Source: Alphaproteobacteria bacterium (lineage in GTDB: Bacteria; Pseudomonadota; Alphaproteobacteria; Thalassobaculales; Thalassobaculaceae). Taken from it: a stretch of 35,229 nucleotides of DNA. This document shows positions 5,784-35,229 of this stretch, piece after piece. The notes beneath the pieces are model-generated. The model was not told where the DNA came from, searched no databases, and saw nothing but the letters and a program-made list of their open reading frames with translations. Where the stretch lies: the NCBI GenBank assembly GCA_024742605.1, contig JANSYC010000041.1, forward strand, positions 1 through 35,229. The letters are read 5' to 3'. The position numbers and the translations under genes were made by a program. Within the stretch, counting starts at the first letter, position 1. Each line of letters begins with the position of its first letter.

Positions 5784-6950
5784 TTGGTTATTGATCGCAT
5801 GTATTTGGGGTCAGGGGCGGAAACCTCTCTGCTTGATCTGATTATTCAGACGGCCCCGGATGCGATCATCACTGCGGATTCCAACGGCATCATTTTGAGC
5901 TTCAGTCCGGCCGCCGAGCAGATGTTCGGTTACAAGGCGGATGAAGTCGTGGGACAGAATTTGAGCTGCTTGATGCTGGAGCAGGATCGCGCTCATCATG
6001 ACGGGTATTTGCAGCACTATATGCGGACCGGGGAAAAGCATGTGATCGGGATCGGACGCCAGGTTCGAGCCCGGCGCAAATCCGGTGAGGCTTTCGTTGC
6101 CGAATTGGCGGTGGGGGAACTGCGAAAAGGCGACGATCGTATCTTTACCGGGTTCATCCGCGACGTCACCGAACGGGTGGATGCGATCCGAAAGGCTAGG
6201 CGGCTGCAACGTGCCCTTGATCAGGTCTCGCGCATTCAAATGCTTGGCGAAATGTCGACTGCGGTCGCGCACGAGATTAACCAGCCGCTCACCGCCATTT
6301 CAAATTTCGCGCGCGCCGCGGGGCACCGGCTGCGTGCCAATCCTCCAGATGTTCAAGCGGCTGTGGAACATCTTGACGAACTCGCCGAACAGGCTCTGCG
6401 AGCCGGTGAAATTGTAAAGCGTATGAAGCGCATGGTGGACCGCGGCCAAGCGAATCCCGGTCCGGAAAATATAAATGCGATCGTGGCTGAGGCGGTCAGG
6501 ATCGCCAAGACCGTGCACTCACATGACAACCTCCAAGTAGATATGAAACTGGCGGCAGATCTTCCGCCGGTTCGAGCCGATCGAATTCAGATTCAACAGG
6601 TGATGGTCAATCTCCTTGGCAATGCTGTCGAGGCCATCGAGGGGGAGCCGCCCGCGGAAATCAGTATTTCGACCAGGATGGCTGGGCGAATTGGCGAAAT
6701 TGAGATCCATGCGGAGCGCCAGAACCATGAAACCATCATGGTGACGGTTACGGATAACGGTCCTGGATTGCCGGAAGAGTTGCTGAAGACGGCCTTCGAT
6801 CCCTTCGTCTCTGGTCATATGCAAGGGGTGGGGGTCGGACTGGCGGTCTGCCGTTCGATCATCCAATCCCATGGCGGTCGGATATGGGCTGAAAATAATC
6901 CTGGTGGCGGTGCAAGCGTCCGCTTCACCTTGCCGGTTGCGGACAGTTGA
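5784..6950 (+). CDS. fixL: FixL-type oxygen-sensing haem-PAS histidine kinase
   Basis: About 388 residues, soluble, with no membrane segment. A PAS domain (about 20-135) has the FixL signature IIQTAPDAIITAD, FSPAAEQMFGY, RAHHDGY and HVIGIGR. The His codon at 5997-5999 aligns with the haem-ligating His200 of Bradyrhizobium FixL, and the Arg of HVIGIGR with its Arg220. The kinase part has the H-box VAHEINQPLTAISNFARAA, the N-box VNLLGNAVEAI, and the G-boxes VTDNGPGLPEE and GVGVGLAVCRSII. By analogy, oxygen on the haem turns autophosphorylation off and low oxygen releases it to phosphorylate FixJ. The TTG start at 5784 was chosen because GAGGGAG lies about 9 nt upstream; ATG 5799 lacks a ribosome-binding site. 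Its stop overlaps the fixJ start (TGATG). Confidence 0.88.
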   Translation: MVIDRMYLGSGAETSLLDLIIQTAPDAIITADSNGIILSFSPAAEQMFGYKADEVVGQNLSCLMLEQDRAHHDGYLQHYMRTGEKHVIGIGRQVRARRKSGEAFVAELAVGELRKGDDRIFTGFIRDVTERVDAIRKARRLQRALDQVSRIQMLGEMSTAVAHEINQPLTAISNFARAAGHRLRANPPDVQAAVEHLDELAEQALRAGEIVKRMKRMVDRGQANPGPENINAIVAEAVRIAKTVHSHDNLQVDMKLAADLPPVRADRIQIQQVMVNLLGNAVEAIEGEPPAEISISTRMAGRIGEIEIHAERQNHETIMVTVTDNGPGLPEELLKTAFDPFVSGHMQGVGVGLAVCRSIIQSHGGRIWAENNPGGGASVRFTLPVADS

Positions 6951-7576
6951 TGGCACCGGTGACCCCTTCATCAGTGGATCTGATCGAAGACGATGCAGCC
7001 GTACGTGCCTCTCTGGTTGCTCTGCTGAAGGTTTGGGGGTTCGACGCCCACGCATTTTCGGATGGCGAGAGCTATCTAGCGGAGAAGCCCTGGAACCATT
7101 CTGCATGCCTGCTTTTGGACTACAGTCTTCCGGGACGGAACGGGTTGGAGATCCTGTCGGAATTGCACGGACGGGCGCCGGACTTCCCTGTCATCATGAT
7201 CACCGGTCACGGCGACGTTGCCTTAGCGGTTCGTGCTCTCAAGGCCGGGGCCCGGGACTTTATCGAGAAGCCATATGAGGATGAGGATCTTCGTGAAAAA
7301 ATTGAGAACCTGATCCGAAGCCAAGATTTTGCAGGTGCTAGGGGACTGCCGGATCAGAGCTCGCTAAGGGCCTTCGAAACCCTCACTCCGCGCGAAATGG
7401 AAGTGATGATGGAAGTCGTTGCCGGCCATTCGAACAAGGTGATCGCTCATCACCTTACTCTCAGTCCGAAGACTGTGGAGGTGCACCGTGCACGGGTTAT
7501 GGCGAAGACGGGTGCCAAGAACCTCTCCAATCTGGTGCGGCTGGCGATTAAGGCCGGGCTGGATGGAGGAACATGA
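6950..7576 (+). CDS. fixJ: FixJ-type response regulator
   Basis: A 208-residue protein with a receiver domain and a LuxR-type helix-turn-helix. The receiver has the acidic pair in LIEDDAAV, the phospho-acceptor Asp57 in LLLDYSLPGRNG, the switch Thr in MITGHGD and the Lys in EKPYEDEDL. The C-terminal domain reads LTPREMEVMMEVVAGHSNKVIA and LSPKTVEVHRARVM, the FixJ/NarL-type DNA-binding helix. The ATG at 6950 overlaps the fixL stop, so the two genes are translationally coupled and form a cognate pair. Phosphorylated FixJ classically activates fixK, and the fixK-type gene follows 134 nt downstream behind FixJ-site-like sequence. Confidence 0.9.
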   Translation: MAPVTPSSVDLIEDDAAVRASLVALLKVWGFDAHAFSDGESYLAEKPWNHSACLLLDYSLPGRNGLEILSELHGRAPDFPVIMITGHGDVALAVRALKAGARDFIEKPYEDEDLREKIENLIRSQDFAGARGLPDQSSLRAFETLTPREMEVMMEVVAGHSNKVIAHHLTLSPKTVEVHRARVMAKTGAKNLSNLVRLAIKAGLDGGT

Positions 7577-7599
7577 GGCGGTCGGTTTTCCGTTCCTCC
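7565..7599 (+). terminator. Inverted repeat spanning the end of fixJ
   Basis: GGAGGAAC (7565-7572) and GTTCCTCC (7592-7599) form a perfect 8-bp stem with a 19-nt loop containing the fixJ stop codon. It could act as a weak terminator or attenuator between fixJ and fixK, or stabilise the fixLJ mRNA 3' end. It lacks a T tract. Confidence 0.4.
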
Positions 7600-7605
7600 T
7601 GTATA

Positions 7606-7626
7606 GGGGATTTCCCCAATAAGGGA
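7606..7626. promoter_or_regulatory. Candidate FixJ operator upstream of fixK
   Basis: GGGGATTTCCCC (7606-7617) is a palindrome with a 2-nt centre, overlapped by the second inverted repeat TCCCCAATAAGGGA (7613-7626). With a possible -10 at 7653-7658 (TACGTT) the start site would be near 7665. The palindrome would then lie about -59 to -48, where FixJ binds in known fixK promoters. The ATTTCCC core also resembles the Sinorhizobium fixK site as I remember it. This is inference from position and shape. Confidence 0.45.
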
Positions 7627-7709
7627 TTCTCCCAACTTTCGAAACGCCACCCTACGTTGTGACATCAAGCCGGTTCATTACCACTTTCTCATTTACGGAG
7701 GGTAGTTCG

Positions 7710-8420
7710 ATGACGCTGGCGCTAATTGACACAGATAGTGCCTTATCTCGCTCAAACACTCGGGCTTGTCATGCCGAGGCAAGCACGCCCGAATGGCTCC
7801 GGAGCTTGTTTCGGGATCGTGACCCGCTGCGACCCATCCCTCCCGATGGCATTGTCTTTTTGGATGGCGATCCGGCCGACCAGCTGTTTCAGATCGTCTC
7901 CGGGACGATACGTTGCTGCACGATCTCAGAAGAAGGTCGTCGCCAGATCTTCGGGTTCGCGCGACCGGGTGATTTTCTGGGCTTTTCCGATCTCGATACC
8001 TGGCATTTCACGGCTGAGGCGGTGGATACGGTAACCCTGCGATCTGTATCAAGATCGACGCTCGAAGCTGTCATCTCCAATGAACCATGTCTGCATAAGG
8101 ACATCCGGCGGATAATCGTCGATGAATTGGTGCGGCGGGAACAGCAGCTCATGGTTATCTCTTTTCTGCAGTCAGATGAGAGGCTGTTGTGCTTTCTTCG
8201 GGACCAGGCTGCGCGGACCAGGCCGGTTGACGGATTCACGCTTCTGCCGATGACCCGGCAGGAAATTGGAGACCATATGGGCATGTCCCTGGAGACCGTC
8301 AGCCGCTCCTTCACGAGCTTGAAGCGGAAGCGGGCGATTGTGATGCCGGCGGCGAACCGCTTCAGGCTTTCCGGCGCTTTCGGAGTTGAAGCGATCACCA
8401 GTGACCACATTGCGGCGTGA
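7710..8420 (+). CDS. fixK: FixK-type Crp/Fnr family transcriptional regulator
   Basis: A 236-residue protein from the ATG at 7710, preceded by CGGAGGG; the open frame begins earlier but without a ribosome-binding site. The N-terminal cyclic-nucleotide-binding-like domain contains FLDGDPADQLFQIVSG and GFARPGDFLGF. The C-terminal winged helix has MTRQEIGDHMGMSLETVSRSF, in which E-T-V-S-R matches the E-x-x-S-R signature that contacts TTGA half-sites in FNR and FixK. The FNR iron-sulfur cysteine cluster (CxxCxxxxxC) is absent, so this is a FixK-like protein that depends on FixJ for oxygen information. Perfect cognate boxes occur at 5003, 9283 and 9812. It converges on the zinc-finger/Hsp20 unit. 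Confidence 0.85.
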   Translation: MTLALIDTDSALSRSNTRACHAEASTPEWLRSLFRDRDPLRPIPPDGIVFLDGDPADQLFQIVSGTIRCCTISEEGRRQIFGFARPGDFLGFSDLDTWHFTAEAVDTVTLRSVSRSTLEAVISNEPCLHKDIRRIIVDELVRREQQLMVISFLQSDERLLCFLRDQAARTRPVDGFTLLPMTRQEIGDHMGMSLETVSRSFTSLKRKRAIVMPAANRFRLSGAFGVEAITSDHIAA

Positions 8421-8422
8421 AA

Positions 8423-8443
8423 ACCGCTTGCTGCGGTGTTTCT
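8423..8443. terminator. Small bidirectional hairpin between fixK and the zinc-finger gene
   Basis: ACCGC-TTGCT-GCGGT (8423-8437) is flanked by AAA on the left and GTTTCT on the right. It lies between two converging stop codons, as expected for a shared terminator. The stem is only 5 bp, so it is weak. Confidence 0.45.
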
Positions 8444-8445
8444 GC

Positions 8446-8649
8446 CTAGTCCGTCCTCGGCTTTGGCCAGGTCGCTGTCGAAACCGGCATCCATGGGGCG
8501 ACACGGCGAAAACGGGTTCCGCAGATCGGGCATGCAACCGTTGTCTCAGGAGGCAGATCAAACCCCCATGGCTGATGCCTCGCATCCTCAGGTCCACGGC
8601 AGAGAACACTGGTGCCGTGGACCTCAACAACGGGAAATCGCTCGCCCAT
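8446..8649 (-). CDS. Small CHCC-type zinc-finger protein
   Basis: A 67-residue protein. It reads VHGTSVLCRGPEDARHQPWG, then V-A-C-P-I-C-G-T-R-F, giving a Cys-x8-His spacing followed by a CPxC knuckle and a terminal Phe. This is the pattern of the zf-CHCC family, known from small bacterial proteins and mitochondrial complex I subunits, where it binds one zinc. It starts 17 nt after the Hsp20 stop on the same strand, so it is probably co-transcribed from the FixK-box promoter at 9283. Its role is unknown. The ribosome-binding site is weak, which suggests coupling to Hsp20 translation. Confidence 0.6.
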   Translation of the reverse strand: MGERFPVVEVHGTSVLCRGPEDARHQPWGFDLPPETTVACPICGTRFRRVAPWMPVSTATWPKPRTD

Positions 8650-8665
8650 AAAACTCGGGGCGACG

Positions 8666-9160
8666 TCAGTGCGGCCCTGTCGAGATGGAGATCCTATGGC
8701 TCGACGGCTGCTCTTTCGTCGGCTTCGGCAAGGTGACTTTCAGAACTCCCTTCTCGAAAGTTGCTTTTACATCCTTCGGATCGATTCCCCCGGGCACGCG
8801 GATCGCGCGCTCGAAGACACCCTGCGACCGCTCCATGATCCGCCATTTCTTGTCGGACTGCTCGGACTCGGCTTTGCGTTCGGCGTGGATTCTCAGAACG
8901 TTGTCCTCCAATGTGACGACCGTGTCTTTTTCTTCGACCCCAGGAAGGTCGGCGGTGATGTGTATTTCGGAATCGGTATCTCCGATGTCGACCCGAAGCC
9001 CGAGTGTGCCGTCACCGTTGCTGGACCCTGGACTCCATGACATCTGAGGCATCGAGAACGCATGGAACATCCGGTCCATTTCAGCTTGCAGGGTGCTGAG
9101 TGGATTGTGTCCAAAAATGCTCGGTTGAGGGGCGGTGGGCGTCGCCGTCTTGTCGGCCAT
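8666..9160 (-). CDS. Hsp20 / alpha-crystallin small heat-shock protein
   Basis: A 164-residue protein. The ATG at 9160 is chosen because GGAGGATGAC sits directly upstream; the ATG four codons earlier lacks a ribosome-binding site. The alpha-crystallin domain (about 45-150) includes LRVDIGDTDSEIHITADLPG, VEEKDTVVTLEDNVLRIHAE and the closing strand AFEKGVLKVTLPK-like segment (ATFEKGVLKVTLPKP). The C-terminal tail has the HRISI variant of the I-x-I anchor. Such proteins hold unfolding proteins and are often found near PHA granules. Here the gene is preceded by a perfect FNR/FixK box, pointing to low-oxygen rather than purely heat induction. Confidence 0.92.
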   Translation of the reverse strand: MADKTATPTAPQPSIFGHNPLSTLQAEMDRMFHAFSMPQMSWSPGSSNGDGTLGLRVDIGDTDSEIHITADLPGVEEKDTVVTLEDNVLRIHAERKAESEQSDKKWRIMERSQGVFERAIRVPGGIDPKDVKATFEKGVLKVTLPKPTKEQPSSHRISISTGPH

Positions 9161-23998: not shown

Positions 23999-26437
23999 TT
24001 AAGCGCCGACTGCGTCGCTGATCACCGCCTTGAGCGCCCGGTCGTCCCATTTTTTGGGACCGGACGAGGCGGCTGGCGAGGCGGGGCGGGTGACCAGACG
24101 CCAGGGGCGACCGGTGATCGCCTCCAGCTTGCGGTCAAGCCACTGGAAATATCCCATGTTCTCCGGCTCCTCCTGCGCCCAGACCAGTTCCGCCTCGGGA
24201 TACGGGGCGAGGGCGTCGCGTAGGGCCTGCTCCGGCAGCGGATAGAGCTGTTCGAGCCGGATCAGGGCGGCGTCTGGGTCGGCCTGTTCCAACAGGACCG
24301 CCAGCTTGCCGGTGGACATGATCACCCGCTTGGCCCGACGATGGGTGGCGATCACCGGCTGGAAACTGCCGGACAGAGCGGACAGTTTGGATTTTGCGGC
24401 GGGATGACGGAGCAGGGCTTTCGGCGCCAGCACGACCAGCGGTTTCCGCCATTTCGCCAGGACCTGTCGACGCAGTGCATGGAACAGGTTCGCGGGCGTC
24501 GACAGGTTCACCACCTGGATATTGCCTTTTGCGCAGGCCGCCAGGAGTCGTTCCGGATGGGCGGTCGCGTGGTCGGGGCCGCCACCGTCCAGACCGTGCG
24601 GCAGCAGCATCACCAGATTGCTCTCAAACAGCCAGCGATCCTCGCCGCAGATGATGAACTGGTCGAACATCGGCTGGCAGACGTTCAGGAAATCGCCAAA
24701 CTGCGCCTCCCAGATGGTCAGGCCGTCCGGTCGCGCCAAAGTGTAGCCGTATTCGAACCCCAGGACCGCGTTCTCTGTGAGCGGCGTGTCATGGATCTGG
24801 GGGCGCGTCTCGAAGTCGTCGAAGATGCCATGCCGCGTGAAGCTCTCACCACAATGCAGGGTCAGGTGGCGTTGGGTGAACGCACCGCGGCTGCTGTCCT
24901 GGCCACCCAGTCGAATGGGCACCCCTTCGTCGGCGAGGGTTCCGATGGCGAGTGCCTCGGCCGTCGCCCAGTCGATCCCCTCTCCGCTGGCGATCGCCGA
25001 TTTGCGGGCTTCGAGAAACTGAAGGACTTTTGGGTGGGGGAAGATGCCCTTGGGCAGATCGGTCAACCGGGTCCCGATCGCCTGCAGCCGATCTGCCGCG
25101 ACGCCGGTCGCAATGGGCGCCAGCAAATCGTCGGTGATTCCGGCCGAGATGCCGTGCGGGCGGGCCGGGGCATTGGGGCGCCAGGCCTTTGCCGCTTCGA
25201 ATGCGATGTCGAGTTCGGCCCGGAACCCGTCGATCCGGGGGGAGAGGCCGGTTGCCGCCCCGTACCGTTGTGACAGCGGGCTCTTGTGGTCGATGGCGGT
25301 GTACATGTCCGGCTGGGTGAAGCGCGGCTGGTCGATTTCGTTGTGACCTTTGCGGCGGTAGGCGATGCAGTCGACCACGATGTCGCCGCCGAACGCCTGT
25401 CGATAGGCGACCGCCACCTGAGCGGCCAGGATCAGTGCGTCCGGATCCTCGCCGTTCACATGCAGGATCGGCGCCTCGATCAGCTTGGCCATATCGGCGC
25501 AGGTCCGGGCGGTGCGGGCCTCGGCCGCATTGGTGGTGAAGCCGATCTGGTTGTTGAGGATCAGGTGCAGGGTGCCGCCGACCTTGAAGGCGTCCAGCTC
25601 CGAGAGCTGCAGGACCTCTGCGTTCACGCCCTGTCCGGCAAAAGCGGCGTCGGTGTGCAGCGCCAGGGGAAGAACCTGGTCGCCTTGTTCCCGCTCGGCC
25701 CGCGCGCGCCCCATTGCGACGGGTGCCACCACCGAAAGGTGGGACGGATGCGGAGACATCCAGAACTCGGGACCGAACGGCGAGGTGCCGTTCCACCCGA
25801 GATGGTAGGGACTGTCAGAAGACGCGCCGAACTCTTCGGGGAACTCGGGCGCCTCCTGGGCCTCGGCCACCACGCGGGCCAGGGGCTTGCCGTACAGCAG
25901 CGCCATCTGGGTCAGCCGACCCCGATGCATGCCCCCGGCTACCACCCGCCCGATCCCCGACCTGTCCGCCTCCCGAAGCACTTCGGCCACCAGCACCAGA
26001 TACCCCTCCGCGCCGGACAGCCCGAAGGTCTTGGCCCCGGGCATCCGCCGATCGCACATGGCTTCGAAAAGCTCACCCTTCGCGATCACGTCGAGTGCGT
26101 CCTGTCGCCCTCTCGGTTCTCGTAGCGACTCGGCCTGAAGCGCCAGCCAGTCACGCCGGACGGTGTCCTGAATGTGTCCGATCTCCCAGCCGATGGTGCT
26201 GCAATAAGCCAGTTCCAGATCCGCCTCGTCCCCCGGCATCAGGCCATACAGCGTCGGGTCCAGTTCAGGGACCCGAGAGGGGACGGATATTTCCAAGGGA
26301 TCCAGACTTGCCGCCATCCAGCCCCAGCGCCGGTAAGCTTCGGCCAAGGCACGGCGTGCGCCGCCTCGGGTAGCGCCTTCGAACAGGGATTCCAGGGCAC
26401 CGGGGTCTCCGGCACCCAGAAAATCGGTATTCCGCAT
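23999..26437 (-). CDS. Divergent 2-oxoglutarate dehydrogenase E1-like ThDP enzyme
   Basis: An 812-residue protein with the whole E1 fold but shorter than the usual 930-990 residues, mostly because the N-terminal region is compact. Visible motifs are AYRRWGWMAASLDPL, GGMHRGRLTQM, PHPSHLSVVAPVAMG (usual NPSHLE changed), HTDAAFAGQGV, the ThDP-region LNNQIGFTTNAAEART and YRRKGHNEIDQPRFTQPDMY, and later GFEYGYTLARPDGLTIWEAQFGDF. It decarboxylates a 2-oxoacid with thiamine diphosphate by family analogy. No E2 or E3 gene is adjacent, so it is a paralogue, not the TCA-cycle operon. It lies 30 nt after the ABC permease gene and is probably the last gene of that operon. Confidence 0.85.
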   Translation of the reverse strand: MRNTDFLGAGDPGALESLFEGATRGGARRALAEAYRRWGWMAASLDPLEISVPSRVPELDPTLYGLMPGDEADLELAYCSTIGWEIGHIQDTVRRDWLALQAESLREPRGRQDALDVIAKGELFEAMCDRRMPGAKTFGLSGAEGYLVLVAEVLREADRSGIGRVVAGGMHRGRLTQMALLYGKPLARVVAEAQEAPEFPEEFGASSDSPYHLGWNGTSPFGPEFWMSPHPSHLSVVAPVAMGRARAEREQGDQVLPLALHTDAAFAGQGVNAEVLQLSELDAFKVGGTLHLILNNQIGFTTNAAEARTARTCADMAKLIEAPILHVNGEDPDALILAAQVAVAYRQAFGGDIVVDCIAYRRKGHNEIDQPRFTQPDMYTAIDHKSPLSQRYGAATGLSPRIDGFRAELDIAFEAAKAWRPNAPARPHGISAGITDDLLAPIATGVAADRLQAIGTRLTDLPKGIFPHPKVLQFLEARKSAIASGEGIDWATAEALAIGTLADEGVPIRLGGQDSSRGAFTQRHLTLHCGESFTRHGIFDDFETRPQIHDTPLTENAVLGFEYGYTLARPDGLTIWEAQFGDFLNVCQPMFDQFIICGEDRWLFESNLVMLLPHGLDGGGPDHATAHPERLLAACAKGNIQVVNLSTPANLFHALRRQVLAKWRKPLVVLAPKALLRHPAAKSKLSALSGSFQPVIATHRRAKRVIMSTGKLAVLLEQADPDAALIRLEQLYPLPEQALRDALAPYPEAELVWAQEEPENMGYFQWLDRKLEAITGRPWRLVTRPASPAASSGPKKWDDRALKAVISDAVGA

Positions 26438-26467: not shown

Positions 26468-27268
26468 TCAACTCCGCCACCGGAGCACGCGGCGCTCCAA
26501 TAGCCCAATGGAGAAACTCAGCAGGACGCCGAGCAGGGAGAGGATAACCACACCTGCGAACAGTCTTTCCAGATCAAAAAGGGCGCCAGCCTCGAGAATA
26601 TAGGCGCCAATCCCGTGTTCGGCGCCCAGCATCTCGGCCGCCACCAGCAGGATGATGGCGATGGCGAGGCTGATCCGCAGGCCTGACAGGATACCGGGCA
26701 TGGCGCCCGGCAGCACGATCTTCCGCACAATCGAGATCCAGGACAGGCCGAAACTCTGTCCCATGCGGATCAACGTCCGGTCGACATTGTCGACCGCCCC
26801 GTAGGTCGCCACCACGGTTGGCGTGAAGGTGCCGAACGCGATCAACGCGTACTTGGACCCCTCGTCAATGCCGAACCAGATCACGAACAAGGGCAGCAAG
26901 GCGATTTTCGGTATCGGAAACAGCGCCGCCACCACCGGCGACAGACCGGCGCGGACATAGGAGAACAACCCGATCAGTACGCCGGTTGCGATTCCCGCGC
27001 CGGCCCCCAATAGGGCGCCGACACAGAGACGGGTGAGCGAGGGCGCCAGATGGGTCCACAGCATGCCGCTCGCGTAGAGATCCCGAAAGGTGCCGAGCAC
27101 ATCGGAGGGACGGGGGAGGGTCAGTGGGGAAATGAACCCGATCCGGGTCCCGACCTCGGCGAAGACCAGCAATAGGGCGAAGACCGCGAACCCGACCCAG
27201 CGATAGGGTCGGGTGGTGAACCCGCCACCCCGAAACGGCACGGTGCTGGGGGCGTCTCTCTCAGACAT
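26468..27268 (-). CDS. ABC transporter permease (SsuC/TauC type)
   Basis: A 266-residue membrane protein starting at ATG 27268, which overlaps the ATPase stop by 8 nt. It has about six hydrophobic segments. The cytoplasmic EAA loop, FGLSWISIVRKIVLPGAMPGILSGLRISLA (about 180-205), contacts the ATPase and is typical of nitrate/sulfonate/taurine importer permeases. Together with the ATPase at 27261 and the TAT-exported binding protein at 28090 it makes a complete importer. The E1-like gene follows after 30 nt. The substrate is unknown; the family covers sulfonates, nitrate, aromatic acids and thiamine precursors. Confidence 0.9.
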   Translation of the reverse strand: MSERDAPSTVPFRGGGFTTRPYRWVGFAVFALLLVFAEVGTRIGFISPLTLPRPSDVLGTFRDLYASGMLWTHLAPSLTRLCVGALLGAGAGIATGVLIGLFSYVRAGLSPVVAALFPIPKIALLPLFVIWFGIDEGSKYALIAFGTFTPTVVATYGAVDNVDRTLIRMGQSFGLSWISIVRKIVLPGAMPGILSGLRISLAIAIILLVAAEMLGAEHGIGAYILEAGALFDLERLFAGVVILSLLGVLLSFSIGLLERRVLRWRS

Positions 27269-28028
27269 CGAGCAATTCCGCATCGGCGGCCCGCGCCTCG
27301 TCCCGCATCAGAGTCCAGAGGTGCCGCTGCTGCCGGTCCAGATCGGGATCTCCGAAACCCCGCTCTTCCAAAGGTTTGTCCAGATGGAGGATCTCCCGGA
27401 TCTGACCCGGTCTGCGGGACAACACGACCACCACGTGACCGAGGCGGACCGCCTCCGCCAGATTGTGGGTGACGTAGACAGCGGTGAACGGGGTGCGTGT
27501 CCACAGCGCAATCAGGTCGTCCATCAACAACTCACGGGTCTGACTGTCCAGTGCGGACAGCGGCTCATCCATCAGCATCACTGCAGGTCGGACCGCCAGC
27601 GCCCGCGCGATCGCGACCCGCTGCTTCATCCCGCCGGACAACTGTTTCGGCAGGGCCGCACCAAAGTCGGTCAGCCTCGTGCGTGACAGTACGTCGTCAA
27701 CAATCGACTCCCGTCGCGTGCTGGACATGGGATGGTCTTCCAGGACCAACGATACATTGCCGCGCACCGTCCGCCAGGGCAGGAGCGCGAAGTCCTGAAA
27801 CACATAGGTGAGCGGGTTGAGGCAGTCCTCGGACGGGGCGCCCATCTGGAGGACCTGTCCGGTGGTCGGTTTCTCGAGACCGCCGATGAAGCGGAGCAGG
27901 GTCGATTTTCCACAGCCGGACGGGCCCACCAAACAGACTATCTTGCCCGAGGGAATATCGAGCGAGATGTCCCGCATCACTTCGACATCGCCGTAGCTGT
28001 GGCCGATCGCGTCCAGGCGAATGTCCAA
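27261..28028 (-). CDS. ABC transporter ATP-binding protein (SsuB/TauB type)
   Basis: A 255-residue ATPase with Walker A GPSGCGKST (about 34-42), a Q-loop in YVFQDFALLPWRTV, signature LSGGMKQRVAIARAL, Walker B VMLMDEPLSALD and H-loop YVTHNLAEAV. The aromatic Q-loop and the overall length are typical of nitrate/sulfonate/taurine importers. It is translated in the unit binding protein, ATPase, permease, and overlaps the permease start by 8 nt. It should energise uptake at the inner membrane. Confidence 0.93.
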   Translation of the reverse strand: MDIRLDAIGHSYGDVEVMRDISLDIPSGKIVCLVGPSGCGKSTLLRFIGGLEKPTTGQVLQMGAPSEDCLNPLTYVFQDFALLPWRTVRGNVSLVLEDHPMSSTRRESIVDDVLSRTRLTDFGAALPKQLSGGMKQRVAIARALAVRPAVMLMDEPLSALDSQTRELLMDDLIALWTRTPFTAVYVTHNLAEAVRLGHVVVVLSRRPGQIREILHLDKPLEERGFGDPDLDRQQRHLWTLMRDEARAADAELLDV

Positions 28029-28089
28029 GGCACCGTCTCCTCAAGCGTCCGGCACAGGACCTGTGCCGGAGCCTGGTGGCCTGATGAGC

Positions 28090-29106
28090 TCAGCCCATCG
28101 TCTTCACATAGCTGCCGTCGACCACCTGATCGAGTGAAATGTCCCCGTCCACCAGATTTTCTGACTGGAACCAGGACAGCTGATCCTGCAGCGAGGTCAT
28201 ATTGATGGCCGCGCCTTCGTTCAGGCGCATGGTGCCGTTGATGATCGAAGGAGCCGCCTTCTCGATGGGACGGTCGGCATAGACGTATTTGTGGATCAGT
28301 CCCACCATCTCCGTGACCCCGGCTTCGCCACCTGCCTTGGCGATCATCGTGGCGTTGTAGTCGGAGACTCCCTTTGAATAACCGCTGAGGAAGTCGGAGG
28401 TGAGTTGCCGCTCGTCGTTTGCGTTCCTGGCAGAGGTGAAGACGGTTGTGACCTGGTAGCCGGGGAGATAGTCGGCAACGTCGCCGATGATGTGAACGGC
28501 GCCGGATTTCGCCAGAGGTTTGGCGATGTGCGGGACGATCGACCAGGCGTCGATCTGGCCACTCTTCAGCGCGCCGATGATGGCGCCGACCTTCTGCAGG
28601 GGTTTGAAGGTGACCGAGGCGTTTTCGGCCGCGGCGATCTTCGAGCCCATATAGTGAAAGGAGGAGCCCGCCTGGGTCATACCGAAGCTTCTGCCGTCCA
28701 GCGCGGACGGAGAGGTCAGTCCGGCCTGAAACGCCGAGTCGGATGCGAGGATCTTCTGCCCATCAATCCCCTTCTCCTCGGACAACGCACCGCCGATCAC
28801 CTTTATCGCGCCTTTGTCGGCGAGCGAGATCAGGCCCCCGGACATGGCGGTCACCGCGTAATCCACGTCACCGGAGGCGATCGCCACCGCCATCGGTTGG
28901 GCTGCCTGAAAAAACTTCAGTTCCAAATCCAGACCGGCCGCCGAGAAATATCCGCGCTCGAATGCGACAAAGCTGCCGGCGTGGCTGGTGAACCGCAGGG
29001 CGCCGACCACAATCTTGCGGTTCTGCGATATGGCGGGTGCCGACAACCCGAAGGCTGCCACGCCGGCCATCATCCCGAGCGCCTGACGGCGACTGATCCT
29101 GAGCAT
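28090..29106 (-). CDS. TAT-exported ABC substrate-binding protein (NMT1/TauA type)
   Basis: A 338-residue periplasmic protein starting at ATG 29106. The N-terminus MLRISRRQALGMMAGVAAFG is a twin-arginine signal with likely cleavage after LSAPAISQ. The mature part reads VVGALRFTSHAGSFVAFERG, SAAGLDLELKFFQAAQPMAVAI and DYAVTAMSGGLISLA, the pattern of the SsuA/TauA/NMT1 group. TAT export suggests folding before export. Binding residues cannot be assigned. It is the first gene of the importer operon and determines its specificity. The small membrane-protein gene at 29239 lies 132 nt upstream on the same strand. Confidence 0.87.
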   Translation of the reverse strand: MLRISRRQALGMMAGVAAFGLSAPAISQNRKIVVGALRFTSHAGSFVAFERGYFSAAGLDLELKFFQAAQPMAVAIASGDVDYAVTAMSGGLISLADKGAIKVIGGALSEEKGIDGQKILASDSAFQAGLTSPSALDGRSFGMTQAGSSFHYMGSKIAAAENASVTFKPLQKVGAIIGALKSGQIDAWSIVPHIAKPLAKSGAVHIIGDVADYLPGYQVTTVFTSARNANDERQLTSDFLSGYSKGVSDYNATMIAKAGGEAGVTEMVGLIHKYVYADRPIEKAAPSIINGTMRLNEGAAINMTSLQDQLSWFQSENLVDGDISLDQVVDGSYVKTMG

Positions 29107-29238
29107 GCTTTCCTCCCTCACGCTTTGGCCGGGCCCTTGGAGCCCGTTGTCGGAAAGATTAGCGCGGCCGGATGCCAATTTGTCCAGACCTTGCCCGCGC
29201 GATGAACGAGCTGACCGAGGTCATCGATCCGCATCGGA

Positions 29239-29643: not shown

Positions 29644-29768
29644 GGGCGTCGGATCTCCAGGCGTATGATTCAGATCAGGGCATGTTCAATTAGATTTGGA
29701 TTAAGAGATATGAATGCGACCGTTGATTCGCAATGATGAAGGCCGATAACCGATCTCAGGAGTGTTCC

Positions 29769-30842
29769 ATGGTCTCTACCACAGGTCCCGCCGCCCGCGT
29801 GCTGCCCAAGATCGATCTCTACAGCGACACCGTCACCCGCCCGACGTCCGGAATGCGGCGCGCGATCGCCGAGGCCGAGGTCGGAAACGAGCAGGCGGAG
29901 GAAGATCCGACGGTGAACCGTCTGCAGGATATGGTGGCCAACCTGCTGGGCAAGGAACGGGCAGTGTTCCTCCCGTCCGGGACCATGTGCAACGAGATTG
30001 CCTATCGGGTGTGGTGTGACCATGGCGATGAGATCATTCTGGACGAGACCGCCCATGCGCTGCATTTTGAAAGCGGTGGGCCGGGCGCCCTTGCCGGGGC
30101 GATGACCCGGACGATTTCAGGCGCGCGTGGGATCTTCGACGGATCTGCTGTGGACGCGGTGATCCGACTGAAGACGCGGCATGCGCCCCGGCAGAAGCTG
30201 ATATCGATCGAGAACACGGCCAATTTGGGTGGCGGTGCGATCTGGCCGATGGAAACCGTCGAGAGTGTGGTGGGCGCTGCCGATCGTCACGGCCTGAAGC
30301 TGCATATCGACGGCGCCCGACTGCTGAACGCGGTGGTGGCGAGCGGTATTCCGGCGCGGGATTTCTCGGCGCGCTGCGATAGTGTCTGGATCGATCTCTC
30401 GAAGGGGCTCGGGTGTCCGGTCGGCGCCGTGCTCGCCGGATCGGATGCGTTCATAGAAGATGCGTGGCGGTTCAAGCATCAGTTCGGTGGTGCCATGCGC
30501 CAGGCCGGCATCATCGCGGCGGCCGGGGTTTATGCGCTGGAGCACCATGTCGACCGCCTGGCTGACGATCACACCCATGCCAGGCGTCTGGCCGACGGGA
30601 TCGCCGATGTGAAGGGCATTCGGGTGAACCCGAATGAGGTCGAGACCAACATGGTCTATTTCGATGTTTCCGGCACCGGCGTGACGGGAGCCGAGTTCTC
30701 GCGGCGGCTGTTGTCCGAGCACGAGGTGCGGATCGGGGCTATGGGTCCGCATTTGATGCGGGCGGTCACGCATCTGGACGTGGGACATCCGGAGATCGAA
30801 CTGGCGGTCGCGGCGGTACGCGCGGTGGCGGCGGAGGTCTAG
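29769..30842 (+). CDS. Low-specificity L-threonine aldolase family enzyme
   Basis: A 357-residue PLP enzyme of fold type I. The ATG at 29769 follows CAGGAGTGTTCC and is preferred over two upstream Met codons. It begins with the family pattern DLYSDTVTRPTSGMRRAIAEAEVGNEQAEEDPTVNRLQ. It has PSGTMCNEIA, the PLP-binding Asp in LHIDGARLLNAVVASG and the Schiff-base Lys in WIDLSKGLGCPVGAVL. These enzymes split L-threonine or allo-threonine to glycine and acetaldehyde, and relatives act on other beta-hydroxy amino acids. Its stop codon and that of the convergent isomerase gene share the sequence CTAG. It is on its own on the plus strand. Confidence 0.9.
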   Translation: MVSTTGPAARVLPKIDLYSDTVTRPTSGMRRAIAEAEVGNEQAEEDPTVNRLQDMVANLLGKERAVFLPSGTMCNEIAYRVWCDHGDEIILDETAHALHFESGGPGALAGAMTRTISGARGIFDGSAVDAVIRLKTRHAPRQKLISIENTANLGGGAIWPMETVESVVGAADRHGLKLHIDGARLLNAVVASGIPARDFSARCDSVWIDLSKGLGCPVGAVLAGSDAFIEDAWRFKHQFGGAMRQAGIIAAAGVYALEHHVDRLADDHTHARRLADGIADVKGIRVNPNEVETNMVYFDVSGTGVTGAEFSRRLLSEHEVRIGAMGPHLMRAVTHLDVGHPEIELAVAAVRAVAAEV

Positions 30843-31666
30843 AGCATATCCCGGAGGGCCGCCAAGGCCTTGGCGGTTGCGGCGGCCCCGTCACGGGGCA
30901 TGTGGGTCTCGAGGCAGACCGGGAGGTCGCCCTGGGGCGCCGCGGCGAGGATCGTGGCGAGCGCCGTGCGGGTTTCCACCATGCCCTGTCCGAGCGGGAC
31001 ATAGGTTCCCTCGGAATTTACGTCCTTGATGTGCAGGGCACCCGCAATGGCGCCGGCCGCCGTCAGTTCATTGGCAGTGGGCTGTCCGAGACCGGCGTAG
31101 ACCTGATTGCACAGGTCCAGGGCGCCCAAGAGGTGCGTGTCGTCGAACCGCGCCCGGCAGGCAGCCAGATCTCCCAGGGTGCGCAGGTTGCAGACGTGCT
31201 CGTTCTCCATCAGCAAGGTGACGTCCTGAGCCCGCGCCCGGTCCAGCAGGTGTCCGAGATCCTCGGCAAGGTCATCAAGACTGAAGTCCGGATAGGCGAG
31301 GTAGGAGAAGATCCGGATGCGCCTTGTGTCCAGCCGCTCCGCCACCTCGAAAGCACGGGCGATCGCCTTGTCCTGCGGCATTGCGTCCGGGTTGAAGCCG
31401 TGAAAGTTCGCCCCCTCCGGAACCGGGACCCCGGGCCTCGACCATTTCAACAGCGGCGAGCAAAAGCAGGAGACGCGGAGCCCGGCTCCTTCGATTTTTG
31501 CCGCCATCGCGTCCAGCGAGGCGTCGTCGTGCAGCAACGCGCTTTTCCCGCCGACCGACCGGATGTCGACCAGTGGTATCCCATGATGGACGGCGAAGGA
31601 GATCGCCGTGTCCAGATCCTCTGAGACTTCGTCGGTGATCAGCGACAGGATGGCTTGGGCCGGCAT
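30839..31666 (-). CDS. Sugar phosphate isomerase/epimerase-type TIM barrel
   Basis: A 275-residue protein of the xylose-isomerase-like TIM-barrel (AP_endonuc_2) family. Likely metal ligands are Glu in LLMENEHVCN, Asp in LGALDLCNQVYAG, His in ALHIKDVNSEGTYVPLG and Glu in VCLETHMPRD. These four lie on successive strands, as in sugar-acid or inosose isomerases and epimerases. Its start is 1 nt after the stop of the 642-residue unknown gene, so the two are tightly coupled. The substrate is unknown, but it is probably a polyol or sugar derivative handled together with the two upstream gene products. Confidence 0.82.
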   Translation of the reverse strand: MPAQAILSLITDEVSEDLDTAISFAVHHGIPLVDIRSVGGKSALLHDDASLDAMAAKIEGAGLRVSCFCSPLLKWSRPGVPVPEGANFHGFNPDAMPQDKAIARAFEVAERLDTRRIRIFSYLAYPDFSLDDLAEDLGHLLDRARAQDVTLLMENEHVCNLRTLGDLAACRARFDDTHLLGALDLCNQVYAGLGQPTANELTAAGAIAGALHIKDVNSEGTYVPLGQGMVETRTALATILAAAPQGDLPVCLETHMPRDGAAATAKALAALRDML

Positions 31667-31667
31667 C

Positions 31668-33596
31668 TCAGAAGCCGAACATATGATCGAGCGAGAAGGC
31701 GTGTCCGTCTCGGATCAGGCCGTGATACCCGAATAGGCGACAGGTCGTGTCGCGGATCAGTACGTATCCGCCGCGCCCGACTTTCGCGACGTCGTTTGCG
31801 TCGAACATTTCGGACACCCGCCAAAACCGCGATCCGCCGCGCGGAATCTCGATCCTGGTGGTGGCGATCGGGACTCCGTCGGAGCCGGTCAGGACCAGTT
31901 CGGTCCGGGAGGTCGCATGCCATTCCGTGGAAGCCGGATAGATCAGATGGCACATGGTGTCGATCTCGCCGCCCGCCATCGCCTGCCCGACCCGCAGGAA
32001 CAGGCGGGTCGAAAGCCCAGGGGGCGGGCCGCCATAGCTTTGCGGCTCACCCTTGAAGGTCATGATGCCGTTGAACAAATGCGCGCCGAAACTGGTGTCC
32101 GCCGCATGTCCGGTGTCCCGGTCCTCATAGCGGAACAGACCGTGCAGCCATCCGTCAGGTTCCGCACTGGCGCCCTCGACGTCGAAATCGTAAAGCAGTT
32201 CCATATGCCCGTAGCCGCCATCCGGGGTGATCCCACCCAGAACCTCTTCCGCCTCGACCACAACGCTATCCGACCTGTCGAGCATGCCGAACGTGTGTTG
32301 CGCGATCTCCTGTCCCTCGCTGTCGTGCAGCACCAACTGCACCGGTAGTTTGAGCTGGCCGGTCGACATCGGGGTCGGCAGCGCAAATGACCTGTAGCGG
32401 TCGACGGGCAGCATCGGCGCCGGCAGGATGAAGCCTCGTCCCATATGCGCGGTGGCTTCGGCGATCTTCGGGTCCGGCTCCAGGTCGACGCGTTCCACGT
32501 TGACGTGGGCGATCCGGTTGCGACCGTTGCCGGATATGATTTCGTAGCGGGGACGGACCACATGCTTTCCGGCGCGGACCTCGAACTGGGCCGGCCACCG
32601 ACTACCCGGGAACAAGGTCGCGGTATTCAAGGCATAGCACCCGAAACCCGGGATCGGGTCGGACAGTTTCCGGACATCGGATCGGCCCATGAGATTGAGC
32701 CCGATACCGCCAGCGGGTACCGGGGTCGGATGGGCATTCTGCAGCCATAGGGTCACGCGCTCGCCCGGCTTCGGGGCTGGCAGTCCGGCGTAGAGATCCG
32801 CCGGCCAGGCGTTCGCGTCGTGGGTGCAGGAGAGTTCGTCCGGATCGTCGCCATAGGTGTCGACCGCGTATTTGACCACGTCGTGGCCGCGCGCACCGAT
32901 CGCGTGGATGAACAGGGTCCCGGTGAAATCCCCCAGGCCCAGCCGCTCGCGCACGTCCCGGCTGTCGATCACCACACCCGAGGTGTCCTGGTCCAGTGTC
33001 TGTTCCCAGGTCCCGAGCGGCTTGCCGAGCTGATCGAATTGCCGGCACCACAGGCGGATCGGTCCGGCCCCGTAGCCGGACCAGTAATTCGCGGTGACAA
33101 GACGAGTGTGTCGGCCACCGGAATCGCGCAGCAGAGCGTGATTGGTCGCGAAATTCAACGGATCGAGATAGCGGCGGGTGTTGGTCAGCAGGGCGTCCGG
33201 CAACCGCGCGTCATCCAGGCTGGCGAGATCCATCCCCGCCGGAAGCAGGTGGCGGATATGATCGGCAAGGCGGCCTGTGTCGAAACCCACGATCAGCAAG
33301 GTGCGGGCACCACTCTCAGAAATGTCGGTGATCGGGCGCAGGTGTTGACCGAGGACGGTCTCGTTCAGTCGCTCGATCGCCTGGACATAGATGCTTTCGA
33401 CCGACAGGCCGGACAGGTCATAGAGTTCCGCCAGGGTTCCCAGATGGCCCAACGGGTCGTAGATGGCAACCGGCCCCCGGCTGGCGATCCTGCGCAGCAG
33501 CGCCGTCAGGGATTCGGCGGTCAGCGGATGTCCGATGGCCTTGAAAAAGGCGAAGCCGCCAACCTGATTGCTGAAGGTATCGATCCGCAGGGGCAT
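31668..33596 (-). CDS. Unrecognised 642-residue protein with repeated beta-rich segments
   Basis: I do not recognise the family. No signal peptide or membrane segment is visible. Residues 1-165 look alpha/beta, with GPVAIYDPLGHLGTLAELYD (41-60) and TLLIVGFDTGRLADHI (99-114), perhaps a Rossmann-like unit. Residues 166-642 are beta-rich and seem to contain at least three similar segments (about 179-249, 419-508 and 566-642). Each has a pattern like LVLHDSEGQEIA or LVLTGSDGVPIA, a V-V-x-E or VSE turn, and ends in an Asp-containing motif (YAVDTYGDD, AADTSFGAHLF, SLDHMFGF). Sits between the ELM1-family gene and the isomerase in one likely operon. A role with a surface or storage glycan is only a guess. 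Confidence 0.85.
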   Translation of the reverse strand: MPLRIDTFSNQVGGFAFFKAIGHPLTAESLTALLRRIASRGPVAIYDPLGHLGTLAELYDLSGLSVESIYVQAIERLNETVLGQHLRPITDISESGARTLLIVGFDTGRLADHIRHLLPAGMDLASLDDARLPDALLTNTRRYLDPLNFATNHALLRDSGGRHTRLVTANYWSGYGAGPIRLWCRQFDQLGKPLGTWEQTLDQDTSGVVIDSRDVRERLGLGDFTGTLFIHAIGARGHDVVKYAVDTYGDDPDELSCTHDANAWPADLYAGLPAPKPGERVTLWLQNAHPTPVPAGGIGLNLMGRSDVRKLSDPIPGFGCYALNTATLFPGSRWPAQFEVRAGKHVVRPRYEIISGNGRNRIAHVNVERVDLEPDPKIAEATAHMGRGFILPAPMLPVDRYRSFALPTPMSTGQLKLPVQLVLHDSEGQEIAQHTFGMLDRSDSVVVEAEEVLGGITPDGGYGHMELLYDFDVEGASAEPDGWLHGLFRYEDRDTGHAADTSFGAHLFNGIMTFKGEPQSYGGPPPGLSTRLFLRVGQAMAGGEIDTMCHLIYPASTEWHATSRTELVLTGSDGVPIATTRIEIPRGGSRFWRVSEMFDANDVAKVGRGGYVLIRDTTCRLFGYHGLIRDGHAFSLDHMFGF

Positions 33597-33698
33597 CTTT
33601 CGCTCGCGAACTGGTTTTGTGTCTGTCTAGCGGAGCGGGGGCCATGGTTCAATGGACGCCAGACCGAAGAGGTGTGGGCTCGAAGATCTTCCCAACGT

Positions 33699-34694
33699 CT
33701 ATCCGCGACGTGCGCTCAGCTTCTCCCTCAGAAGTTCGCCGACACGAGCGGTCTCGTTCAAAGGTTCGTAGTTGTAGACCTCGAGCTCACCGGCAAAGGG
33801 CCGGGTCAGGCCGGCGTCCCGCAGCCTGTCATGGAAGGCGGCAAGGCGCCCGGTTTCGGTCTCGACGGACGCGACCATGACCGGTTTGCCGGTCGCACAG
33901 GCCTCGGACACCATGTTCACGGAATCGGATGTCACGACGATCGCGTCCGCAAGCCCGAGAAAACCGAGATAGGGGTTTTCACCCTCGCCCGTCCAGACCC
34001 AACCCGGAACATCGGCGAGTCCCTCGGCCAGCGCCTTACGGGTCTCGGAATCGGTGCGCCGGGAGGTTGCCACCAGCAAGGCTGCTCCACTGCTCTGCGC
34101 CAGGTGGCGTAAATCTGAAACGAACCGGGCAACGGCCTCGCCCGAGAAATCGTAGCGCTTGTTGCTGCCGCCGACACTGACCGCGACCCTGGGTCGGGAG
34201 AGGTCCTGGATTAGCGGGTCGAGCGCTTCGGCTGCCGCAGCCAGACGCGCCGGATCATGAGGGTTGAGAGCCCCCAAAGTGTTGACGACTGTCGGGCCTC
34301 GTGCCGGATCATGGAGGGGGACAACCAGCAGATCGAATACATTCGGATCGATCCTTGGGTCCTGAATATGCGCGAGGAGCGGGGGCGCCGCTGCATGGGC
34401 CGCATCCGCCGAAGCCTTGCGTCGGATGGCCAAGGCGGCGCCGGCGGTCCGTCTACCGCAGGAGATCACCACGTCGGGCCACGGCGGCGTCAAAGGGTCG
34501 CCTCCGGCTGAGGCGGCGATGCCCGGTATCTCGCCGAGCCGCGGAAAAAGACGCAGGAGCAGACTCGGCTCGATACGTTTCACTATTGGTGTCAGCCCGG
34601 CCGCTGTCGCCAGCCCAAGGCATTGAACCTGCATCCCGATGGTGCCATCGGTGAGTACCCAAGCCAGATCATCAGTGCGTGCTGCTGCGGTCAT
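33699..34694 (-). CDS. ELM1-family (DUF1022) protein, GT-B-like
   Basis: A 331-residue protein matching the ELM1/DUF1022 family. It starts with LAWVLTDGTIGMQVQCLGLA and has CGRRTAGAALAIRRKA, LLAHIQDPRIDPNVFDLLVVPLHD, then the Rossmann-like second half VAVSVGGSNKRYDFS and ADAIVVTSDSVNMVSEACATGKPVMVA. The last stretch resembles the nucleotide-sugar end of GT-B glycosyltransferases. Plant ELM1 takes part in mitochondrial fission; the role of the alphaproteobacterial forms is unclear and often annotated near lipid or glycan genes. It is probably the first gene of a unit with the 642-residue protein (102-nt gap) and the isomerase. Confidence 0.85.
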   Translation of the reverse strand: MTAAARTDDLAWVLTDGTIGMQVQCLGLATAAGLTPIVKRIEPSLLLRLFPRLGEIPGIAASAGGDPLTPPWPDVVISCGRRTAGAALAIRRKASADAAHAAAPPLLAHIQDPRIDPNVFDLLVVPLHDPARGPTVVNTLGALNPHDPARLAAAAEALDPLIQDLSRPRVAVSVGGSNKRYDFSGEAVARFVSDLRHLAQSSGAALLVATSRRTDSETRKALAEGLADVPGWVWTGEGENPYLGFLGLADAIVVTSDSVNMVSEACATGKPVMVASVETETGRLAAFHDRLRDAGLTRPFAGELEVYNYEPLNETARVGELLREKLSARRG

Positions 34695-34927: not shown

Positions 34928-35229
34928 ATGCGCCGCGTCAAGCTCGACCGTATCGATCGCCGTATTCTGCGGGATTTGCAGGATGACGGGCGGATGACCA
35001 ATGTGGAGCTCGCGAACCGTGCGGGAATTTCGGCACCGCCTTGCCTGCGGCGGGTTCGGGCATTGGAGGACGCGGGGTTCATTCGCGGCTACCACGCGGA
35101 CGTGTCGCCTGAGCATCTGGGGTTCACGGTGACAATCTTTGCCCATGTCGGTCTGACCAGCCAAGCCGAGGGCGATCTTGCCCGGTTCGAGGAGCAGGTC
35201 GGTCACTGGCCCGAGGTGCGCGAATGCCA
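34928..35229 (+). CDS. Lrp/AsnC-family transcriptional regulator (cut by window edge)
   Basis: The first 100 codons of an Lrp/AsnC regulator, running off the right edge. It starts at ATG 34928 after GGAGG. The N-terminal winged HTH reads LDRIDRRILRDLQDDGRMTN, VELANRAGISAPPCLRRVRALEDAGFIRGYHA, the classical Lrp pattern. The beginning of the RAM effector domain follows (FTVTIFAHVGL). Lrp/AsnC proteins bind amino acids and form dimers to octamers. The gene is divergent from the ELM1-family operon and could control it or a gene beyond the edge. Confidence 0.9.
   Translation, partial: MRRVKLDRIDRRILRDLQDDGRMTNVELANRAGISAPPCLRRVRALEDAGFIRGYHADVSPEHLGFTVTIFAHVGLTSQAEGDLARFEEQVGHWPEVREC

Follow-up and report, generated by a model that had tools for sequence, protein, structure and literature searches.

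The bacterial members of the ELM1 family were functionally blank before recent work on Acinetobacter (PMC10936431, PMC12856342). Mutation of Acinetobacter gene 2903 leaves a lipopolysaccharide (LPS) core that stops at two Kdo residues (PMC10936431), and the purified ELM1-type protein of this genus, KdoT, was reported in 2025 to transfer Kdo from CMP-Kdo to Kdo2-lipid IVA, an activity that depends on an SRRT motif and in which KdoT can be partly replaced by its Rickettsia homologue (PMC12856342). The second described system relevant here is the superfamily of ASRT, the Anabaena sensory rhodopsin transducer (Pfam PF07100), named ASRAH by De Souza, Iyer and Aravind, who proposed sugar binding on the grounds of the pocket of TM1070 and of gene neighbourhoods (PMC2739507). 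Members of ASRAH include extracellular dyads and tetrads as well as an actinobacterial family encoded beside a glycosyltransferase, and a role as a free sugar sensor was suggested for ASRT (PMC2739507).

This article describes a protein of 642 residues encoded next to an ELM1-type gene in a member of the Thalassobaculaceae (contig JANSYC010000041.1), the window being the whole stretch of 35,229 nucleotides that was analysed. The ELM1-type gene, the 642-residue gene and a gene for a xylose-isomerase-like TIM-barrel protein follow one another on the reverse strand (Table 1), with a gap of 102 nt between the first two and of 1 nt between the stop of the second and the start of the third; the open reading frame coordinates thus agree with the original prediction, which had placed an ELM1 protein before the 642-residue protein and an isomerase 1 nt behind it. 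The TIM-barrel gene is convergent with a GntG/threonine-aldolase-like gene, the two stops overlapping by 4 nt (30839-30842). A gene for an Lrp-type regulator, cut by the end of the window, is divergent from the ELM1 gene, an arrangement also kept in many Rhodospirillales loci. Elsewhere in the window the genes of an NMT1/THI5-like ABC transporter adjoin one that resembles 2-oxoglutarate dehydrogenase E1.

Table 1. Coordinates of genes and predicted domains; positions are those of the window except where another locus is named, and residues are those of the 642-residue protein.
Feature	Position	Strand	Remarks
2-oxoglutarate dehydrogenase E1-like gene	23999-26437		name by eye
NMT1/THI5-like ABC transporter set	26468-29178	-	
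GntG/threonine-aldolase-like gene	29733-30842	+	
Xylose-isomerase-like TIM-barrel ORF, 275 aa	30839-31666	-	AP_endonuc_2, PF01261, E=7e-17
ORF of 642 aa	31668-33596	-	no family match
Sandwich A, residues 149-254			AlphaFold2 model
Sandwich B, residues 263-371	32484..32810	-	closest fold TM1070/ASRT; invariant W264, W284, Q286, N287
Sandwich C, residues 385-508			AlphaFold2 model
Sandwich D, residues 526-642	31671..32021	-	closest fold TM1070/ASRT; invariant C549, Y553
ELM1-type ORF, 331 aa	33699-34694	-	Pfam PF06258, E=2e-94
Lrp-type regulator gene	34928-35227	+	cut by window end
Hemerythrin gene, L036	10922-11617		
Hemerythrin gene, L049	10890-11627		
Hemerythrin gene, L057	4745-5467		
Hemerythrin gene, L080	10941-11660		
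Tandem 2OG-Fe(II) oxygenase genes, L022, L018, L023, L040 (Azospirillum)	~6400-8800		between ELM1 gene and relative of the 642-aa gene

The 642-residue reading frame is a true gene, since it is open over its full length across dozens of species at 53-72% identity. In a scan of genome contigs, relatives were encoded in 337 stretches; the 80 best of these 337 were retrieved and come mainly from Thalassobaculum, Azospirillum, Nitrospirillum and other Rhodospirillales-like bins, together with Sulfuriferula and a few beta- and gammaproteobacterial bins. The gene was present in 86 of 385 alphaproteobacteria sampled as whole genomes and, in a phylum-wide draw, in 4 of 398 genomes, all four alphaproteobacterial; in the genome of the window it is single-copy, and no paralogue of its product was found there. 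Bins labelled as Anaerolineae (L046), Rickettsiales (L051) and Rhizobium (L059) hold copies of the Rhodospirillales type, and these labels may be wrong. Split or stop-containing copies occur in three genomes (G114, G163 and G339), which fits ongoing loss or assembly errors. The original prediction could place the protein in no family, and this was borne out: hmmscan gave zero matches at E<=1 in Pfam or NCBIfam, comparison with PHROGs and with the sequences of the PDB returned noise only and no PDB-sequence relative, and a profile built from 63 members of the family likewise retrieved neither a recognised family nor a relative among PDB sequences. In the alignment of these 63 sequences about 113 of the 642 positions are invariant, a strict conservation given the 53-72% identity to the first sequence. 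Neither a signal peptide nor a membrane segment is apparent (highest hydropathy over 19 residues, 0.93), and the protein is predicted to be cytoplasmic.

The ELM1 protein of the window belongs to the same Pfam family as KdoT, is the sole ELM1 copy in its genome and carries the SRRT motif (residues LLVATSRRTDSE), which is present in 72 of the 79 ELM1 copies linked to the 642-residue gene. The GT-B-like partner foreseen in the original prediction is this PF06258 protein, conserved upstream of the gene. CMP-Kdo transferase activity has been demonstrated only in Acinetobacter, with complementation by homologues, and is a prediction for the alphaproteobacterial ELM1 copy. The known co-dependent partner of KdoT is GnaT, a GT4 enzyme, which the 642-residue protein does not resemble. 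Since the genome of the window also has one WaaA, its ELM1 protein would be an additional Kdo transferase, as in Acinetobacter. A special ELM1 subfamily tied to the 642-residue gene was considered and rejected, because in a quick tree of 117 ELM1 sequences linked and unlinked copies are interleaved, with 16 label changes, at least six of them forced by supported branches. This interleaving implies that ELM1 does not need the 642-residue protein and that the gene of the latter has been gained and lost over time. While most alphaproteobacterial genomes have one ELM1-family match, five were counted in one of them (G205).

The pairing of the two genes is conserved. In 76 of the 98 loci whose upstream sequence is long enough to tell, the gene immediately before the 642-residue one is ELM1, in the same orientation, and PF06258 was found in 54 of 55 genomes that have the 642-residue gene compared with 178 of 234 that lack it (Fisher p=4e-5, kinship ignored). 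The pair occurs in different surroundings, the flanking genes being named by eye: a carB-greA-lrp / trxB block in Rhodospirillales, psd and tyrA in Sulfuriferula, dnaK-dnaJ in L080, chorismate synthase in L069, aconitase in L156 and 5-aminolevulinate synthase in L146, L149 and L150. In Sulfuriferula-like bins the gene directly behind the 642-residue gene encodes a hemerythrin protein whose N-terminal part is DUF2249-like. A 2OG-Fe(II) oxygenase gene (PF13640) adjoins the 642-residue gene in 50 loci, often between it and ELM1, and the HxD...H motif is present in all 45 copies examined; no match to this oxygenase was obtained in the window's own genome. In several Azospirillum loci two different oxygenase genes of this kind stand one after the other in the space that separates ELM1 from the relative of the 642-residue gene. 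KdoO, the Kdo 3-hydroxylase, has a Pfam family of its own. Identity of the oxygenase with KdoO was rejected, as Pfam assigns only the generic 2OG family: for one representative the matches are limited to PF13640 and PF13661, and the Azospirillum type matches PF13640 weakly.

LPS genes are found near the 642-residue gene both with and without ELM1. Behind the ELM1 pair of L031 come genes for a methyltransferase, a GT4 enzyme, two GT9 enzymes, a lipid A acyltransferase and an hldE-like product; GT4 and acyltransferase genes come behind that of L069. In loci where ELM1 is not adjacent, the relative has WaaA immediately upstream (L065; PF04413, E=2e-73), LptF/G, LptD and membrane-protein genes beside it (L144), or GT-C (PMT_2) transferase genes (L077 and L161). 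In some Azospirillum loci, as well as in L145, L147, L148, L153 and L155, neither ELM1 nor a recognised LPS gene was seen near the relative. Several independent contexts support a link of the protein to the LPS/Kdo pathway. It counts against this context that much of the alphaproteobacterial ELM1 linkage is one vertically inherited block. As to the glycan or polyol system that had been proposed from the window, the glycan side is retained, with LPS/Kdo as its context, and the polyol side found no support.

The full-length AlphaFold2 model (mean pLDDT 90.6, pTM 0.90) consists of a Rossmann-like N-domain, approximately residues 1-148, and four beta-sandwiches A-D with identical strand order and a short helix behind the fifth strand. 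An alpha/beta N-terminal part had been foreseen and is present in the model, its boundary falling near residue 148 instead of 165. The similar beta-rich segments of the original prediction correspond to the four sandwiches, which share not only strand order but also, weakly and in part, sequence: in a profile self-comparison C and D matched at E=2e-4, above all 20 column shuffles, A-D and B-C gave weaker matches which still exceeded 20 of 20 shuffles, and A-C exceeded 19 of 20, all four matches sharing one register; the A-B and B-D matches were not above all 20 shuffles. When folds were compared with VIA-align, the best match to sandwich D in the full model was 1nc7 (TM1070 of Thermotoga; Z 11.6, rmsd 3.5, 106 residues aligned), followed by 2ii7 (ASRT of Anabaena; Z 9.3). 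A separate model of residues 146-380 gave 1nc7 as the top match to sandwich B (Z 10.5, rmsd 2.7, 103 of 116 residues aligned) and 2ii7 at Z 8.0, the next, unrelated rows being at 5.8. Two modules, B and D, have TM1070/ASRT as top match in separate models and therefore indicate one small family; sandwiches A and C matched no particular family in the fold search. Foldseek returned only multi-domain beta proteins such as complement and pilins for the whole model, at TM-scores of about 0.1 that were judged meaningless, and likewise no meaningful match for the 146-380 model.

The N-domain (residues 4-140) shares its overall fold with the C-terminal domain of the sugar C-methyltransferase TcaB9 (PF08484; Z 8.3 over 112 residues) and with the Rossmann domain of Rex (Z about 7), values that are near the level expected of a common arrangement, and the 642-residue protein lacks the catalytic methyltransferase part. 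An assignment of the N-domain to PF08484 by sequence was discarded, hmmscan being empty and a profile-profile comparison remaining at shuffle level.

In the predicted models sandwiches B and D have the eight-stranded beta-sandwich of TM1070 topology, and the likeness to ASRT/ASRAH extends to the presence of multiple sandwiches within a single chain, a feature of the dyad and tetrad families, and to a glycosyltransferase neighbour, as in the actinobacterial family. With the register set by pattern, the invariant N287 of sandwich B, which stands at the end of a strand, would fall in the place of the nearly invariant Asn that ends strand 2 in ASRAH, and the invariant W284 in the place of the ligand Cys; sandwich D has I552/Y553 where the Asn would fall. 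The SHExxCxxN signature of ligand residues is absent, since in the same pattern-based register the His is replaced in sandwich B by R, T or K and the Cys by Trp, and sandwich D has an invariant Cys with neither His nor Asn. PF07100 does not match the protein at E<=1 (hmmscan), a search for this family across the window's own genome found nothing, and a profile-profile comparison of the sandwiches with six ASRT sequences did not rise above shuffles. As PF07100 does not match and the His/Cys signature is missing, the protein cannot be filed in the ASRT family by sequence; it would be an intracellular fold relative of ASRAH, from which it further differs by fusion to a Rossmann-like N-domain, by its intracellular multi-sandwich architecture and by linkage to Kdo/LPS genes.

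Three other readings were weighed. The main rival, which we hold to be unlikely though worth keeping in mind, is that the 642-residue protein is itself an LPS-core enzyme, perhaps one that modifies Kdo or a different core sugar, perhaps a glycan lyase or a transferase. Its active site would then lie among polar residues that are invariant in the sandwich region: H238, K242, Y243, D246, C257-x-H259-D260, H464, H485, H506, R531, H625 and D637-H638. These residues are very strictly conserved in the 63-sequence alignment, and the roughly 113 invariant positions could equally indicate an enzyme; the LPS genomic evidence applies to this reading just as well, and in many loci a second likely modifying enzyme, the 2OG-Fe(II) oxygenase, stands between ELM1 and the 642-residue gene. 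However, the sandwiches match no enzyme fold above the level of a common arrangement, nor is any catalytic family recognised for the protein, and we infer an accessory rather than a catalytic role. Ranked next, and rather improbable in our estimate, is that proximity to ELM1 reflects inherited gene order without shared function and that the protein has some other task in the cytoplasm, for example as a sugar sensor that regulates metabolism, of the kind proposed for ASRT (PMC2739507). The Rhodospirillales copy does share a conserved block with the housekeeping genes carB, greA, lrp, trxB and lysR, but the ELM1 pair is kept with different flanks in several lineages, including beta- and gammaproteobacterial bins, and LPS genes recur beside the 642-residue gene where ELM1 is missing.

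The reading from which the study started, a tightly coupled three-gene glycan or polyol operon with a sugar isomerase, is very improbable and, as a general system, already contradicted. The three genes are close together in the window, and the TIM-barrel gene also follows the 642-residue gene in L164, a genome from the genus of the window, the only other case of such adjacency; yet a TIM-barrel match adjoined the gene in 0 of 80 other loci (the best 80 of 337 relatives), and in a member of the same family (G380) the TIM-barrel homologue (52%) lies about 286 kb away on the same contig. Adjacency being limited to the genus of the window, the TIM-barrel gene is probably an incidental neighbour, and what is conserved is the pair of ELM1 and the 642-residue gene, often with the 2OG oxygenase between them.

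The explanation we prefer, to which we give roughly even chances, is that the 642-residue protein takes part in LPS inner-core assembly as a cytoplasmic accessory factor, together with the KdoT-like Kdo transferase encoded by the neighbouring ELM1 gene, and that its sandwiches most likely bind sugar. Such binding is suggested by the predicted fold and by the function of the superfamily, which has itself been predicted. The ligand of the sandwiches, at least two of which have the TM1070/ASRT fold, would be Kdo, CMP-Kdo or the Kdo-lipid A core during its growth, bound on the cytoplasmic side; the sugar-bound protein might then present or hold the acceptor, or control the Kdo transferase, and the Rossmann-like N-domain may bind a nucleotide or nucleotide-sugar or serve solely for docking.

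The 642-residue protein represents a real, widespread and undescribed family with a new arrangement of a known fold, for which there is a good contextual case for a part in LPS inner-core assembly. Tentatively, and at somewhat less than even chances, it may represent a new class of LPS assembly protein: cytoplasmic, with four ASRT-like sugar-binding sandwiches, serving ELM1/KdoT and, in at least one lineage, WaaA, present in about one fifth of the sampled alphaproteobacteria and repeatedly gained or lost. ELM1-type proteins occur in most alphaproteobacteria, and a Kdo transferase among proteins of this type was demonstrated only recently, in Acinetobacter. A conserved partner gene would be a direct handle on the addition and modification of Kdo in alphaproteobacteria, and the family may offer a functional setting in which the sugar binding predicted for ASRT-like proteins becomes testable.
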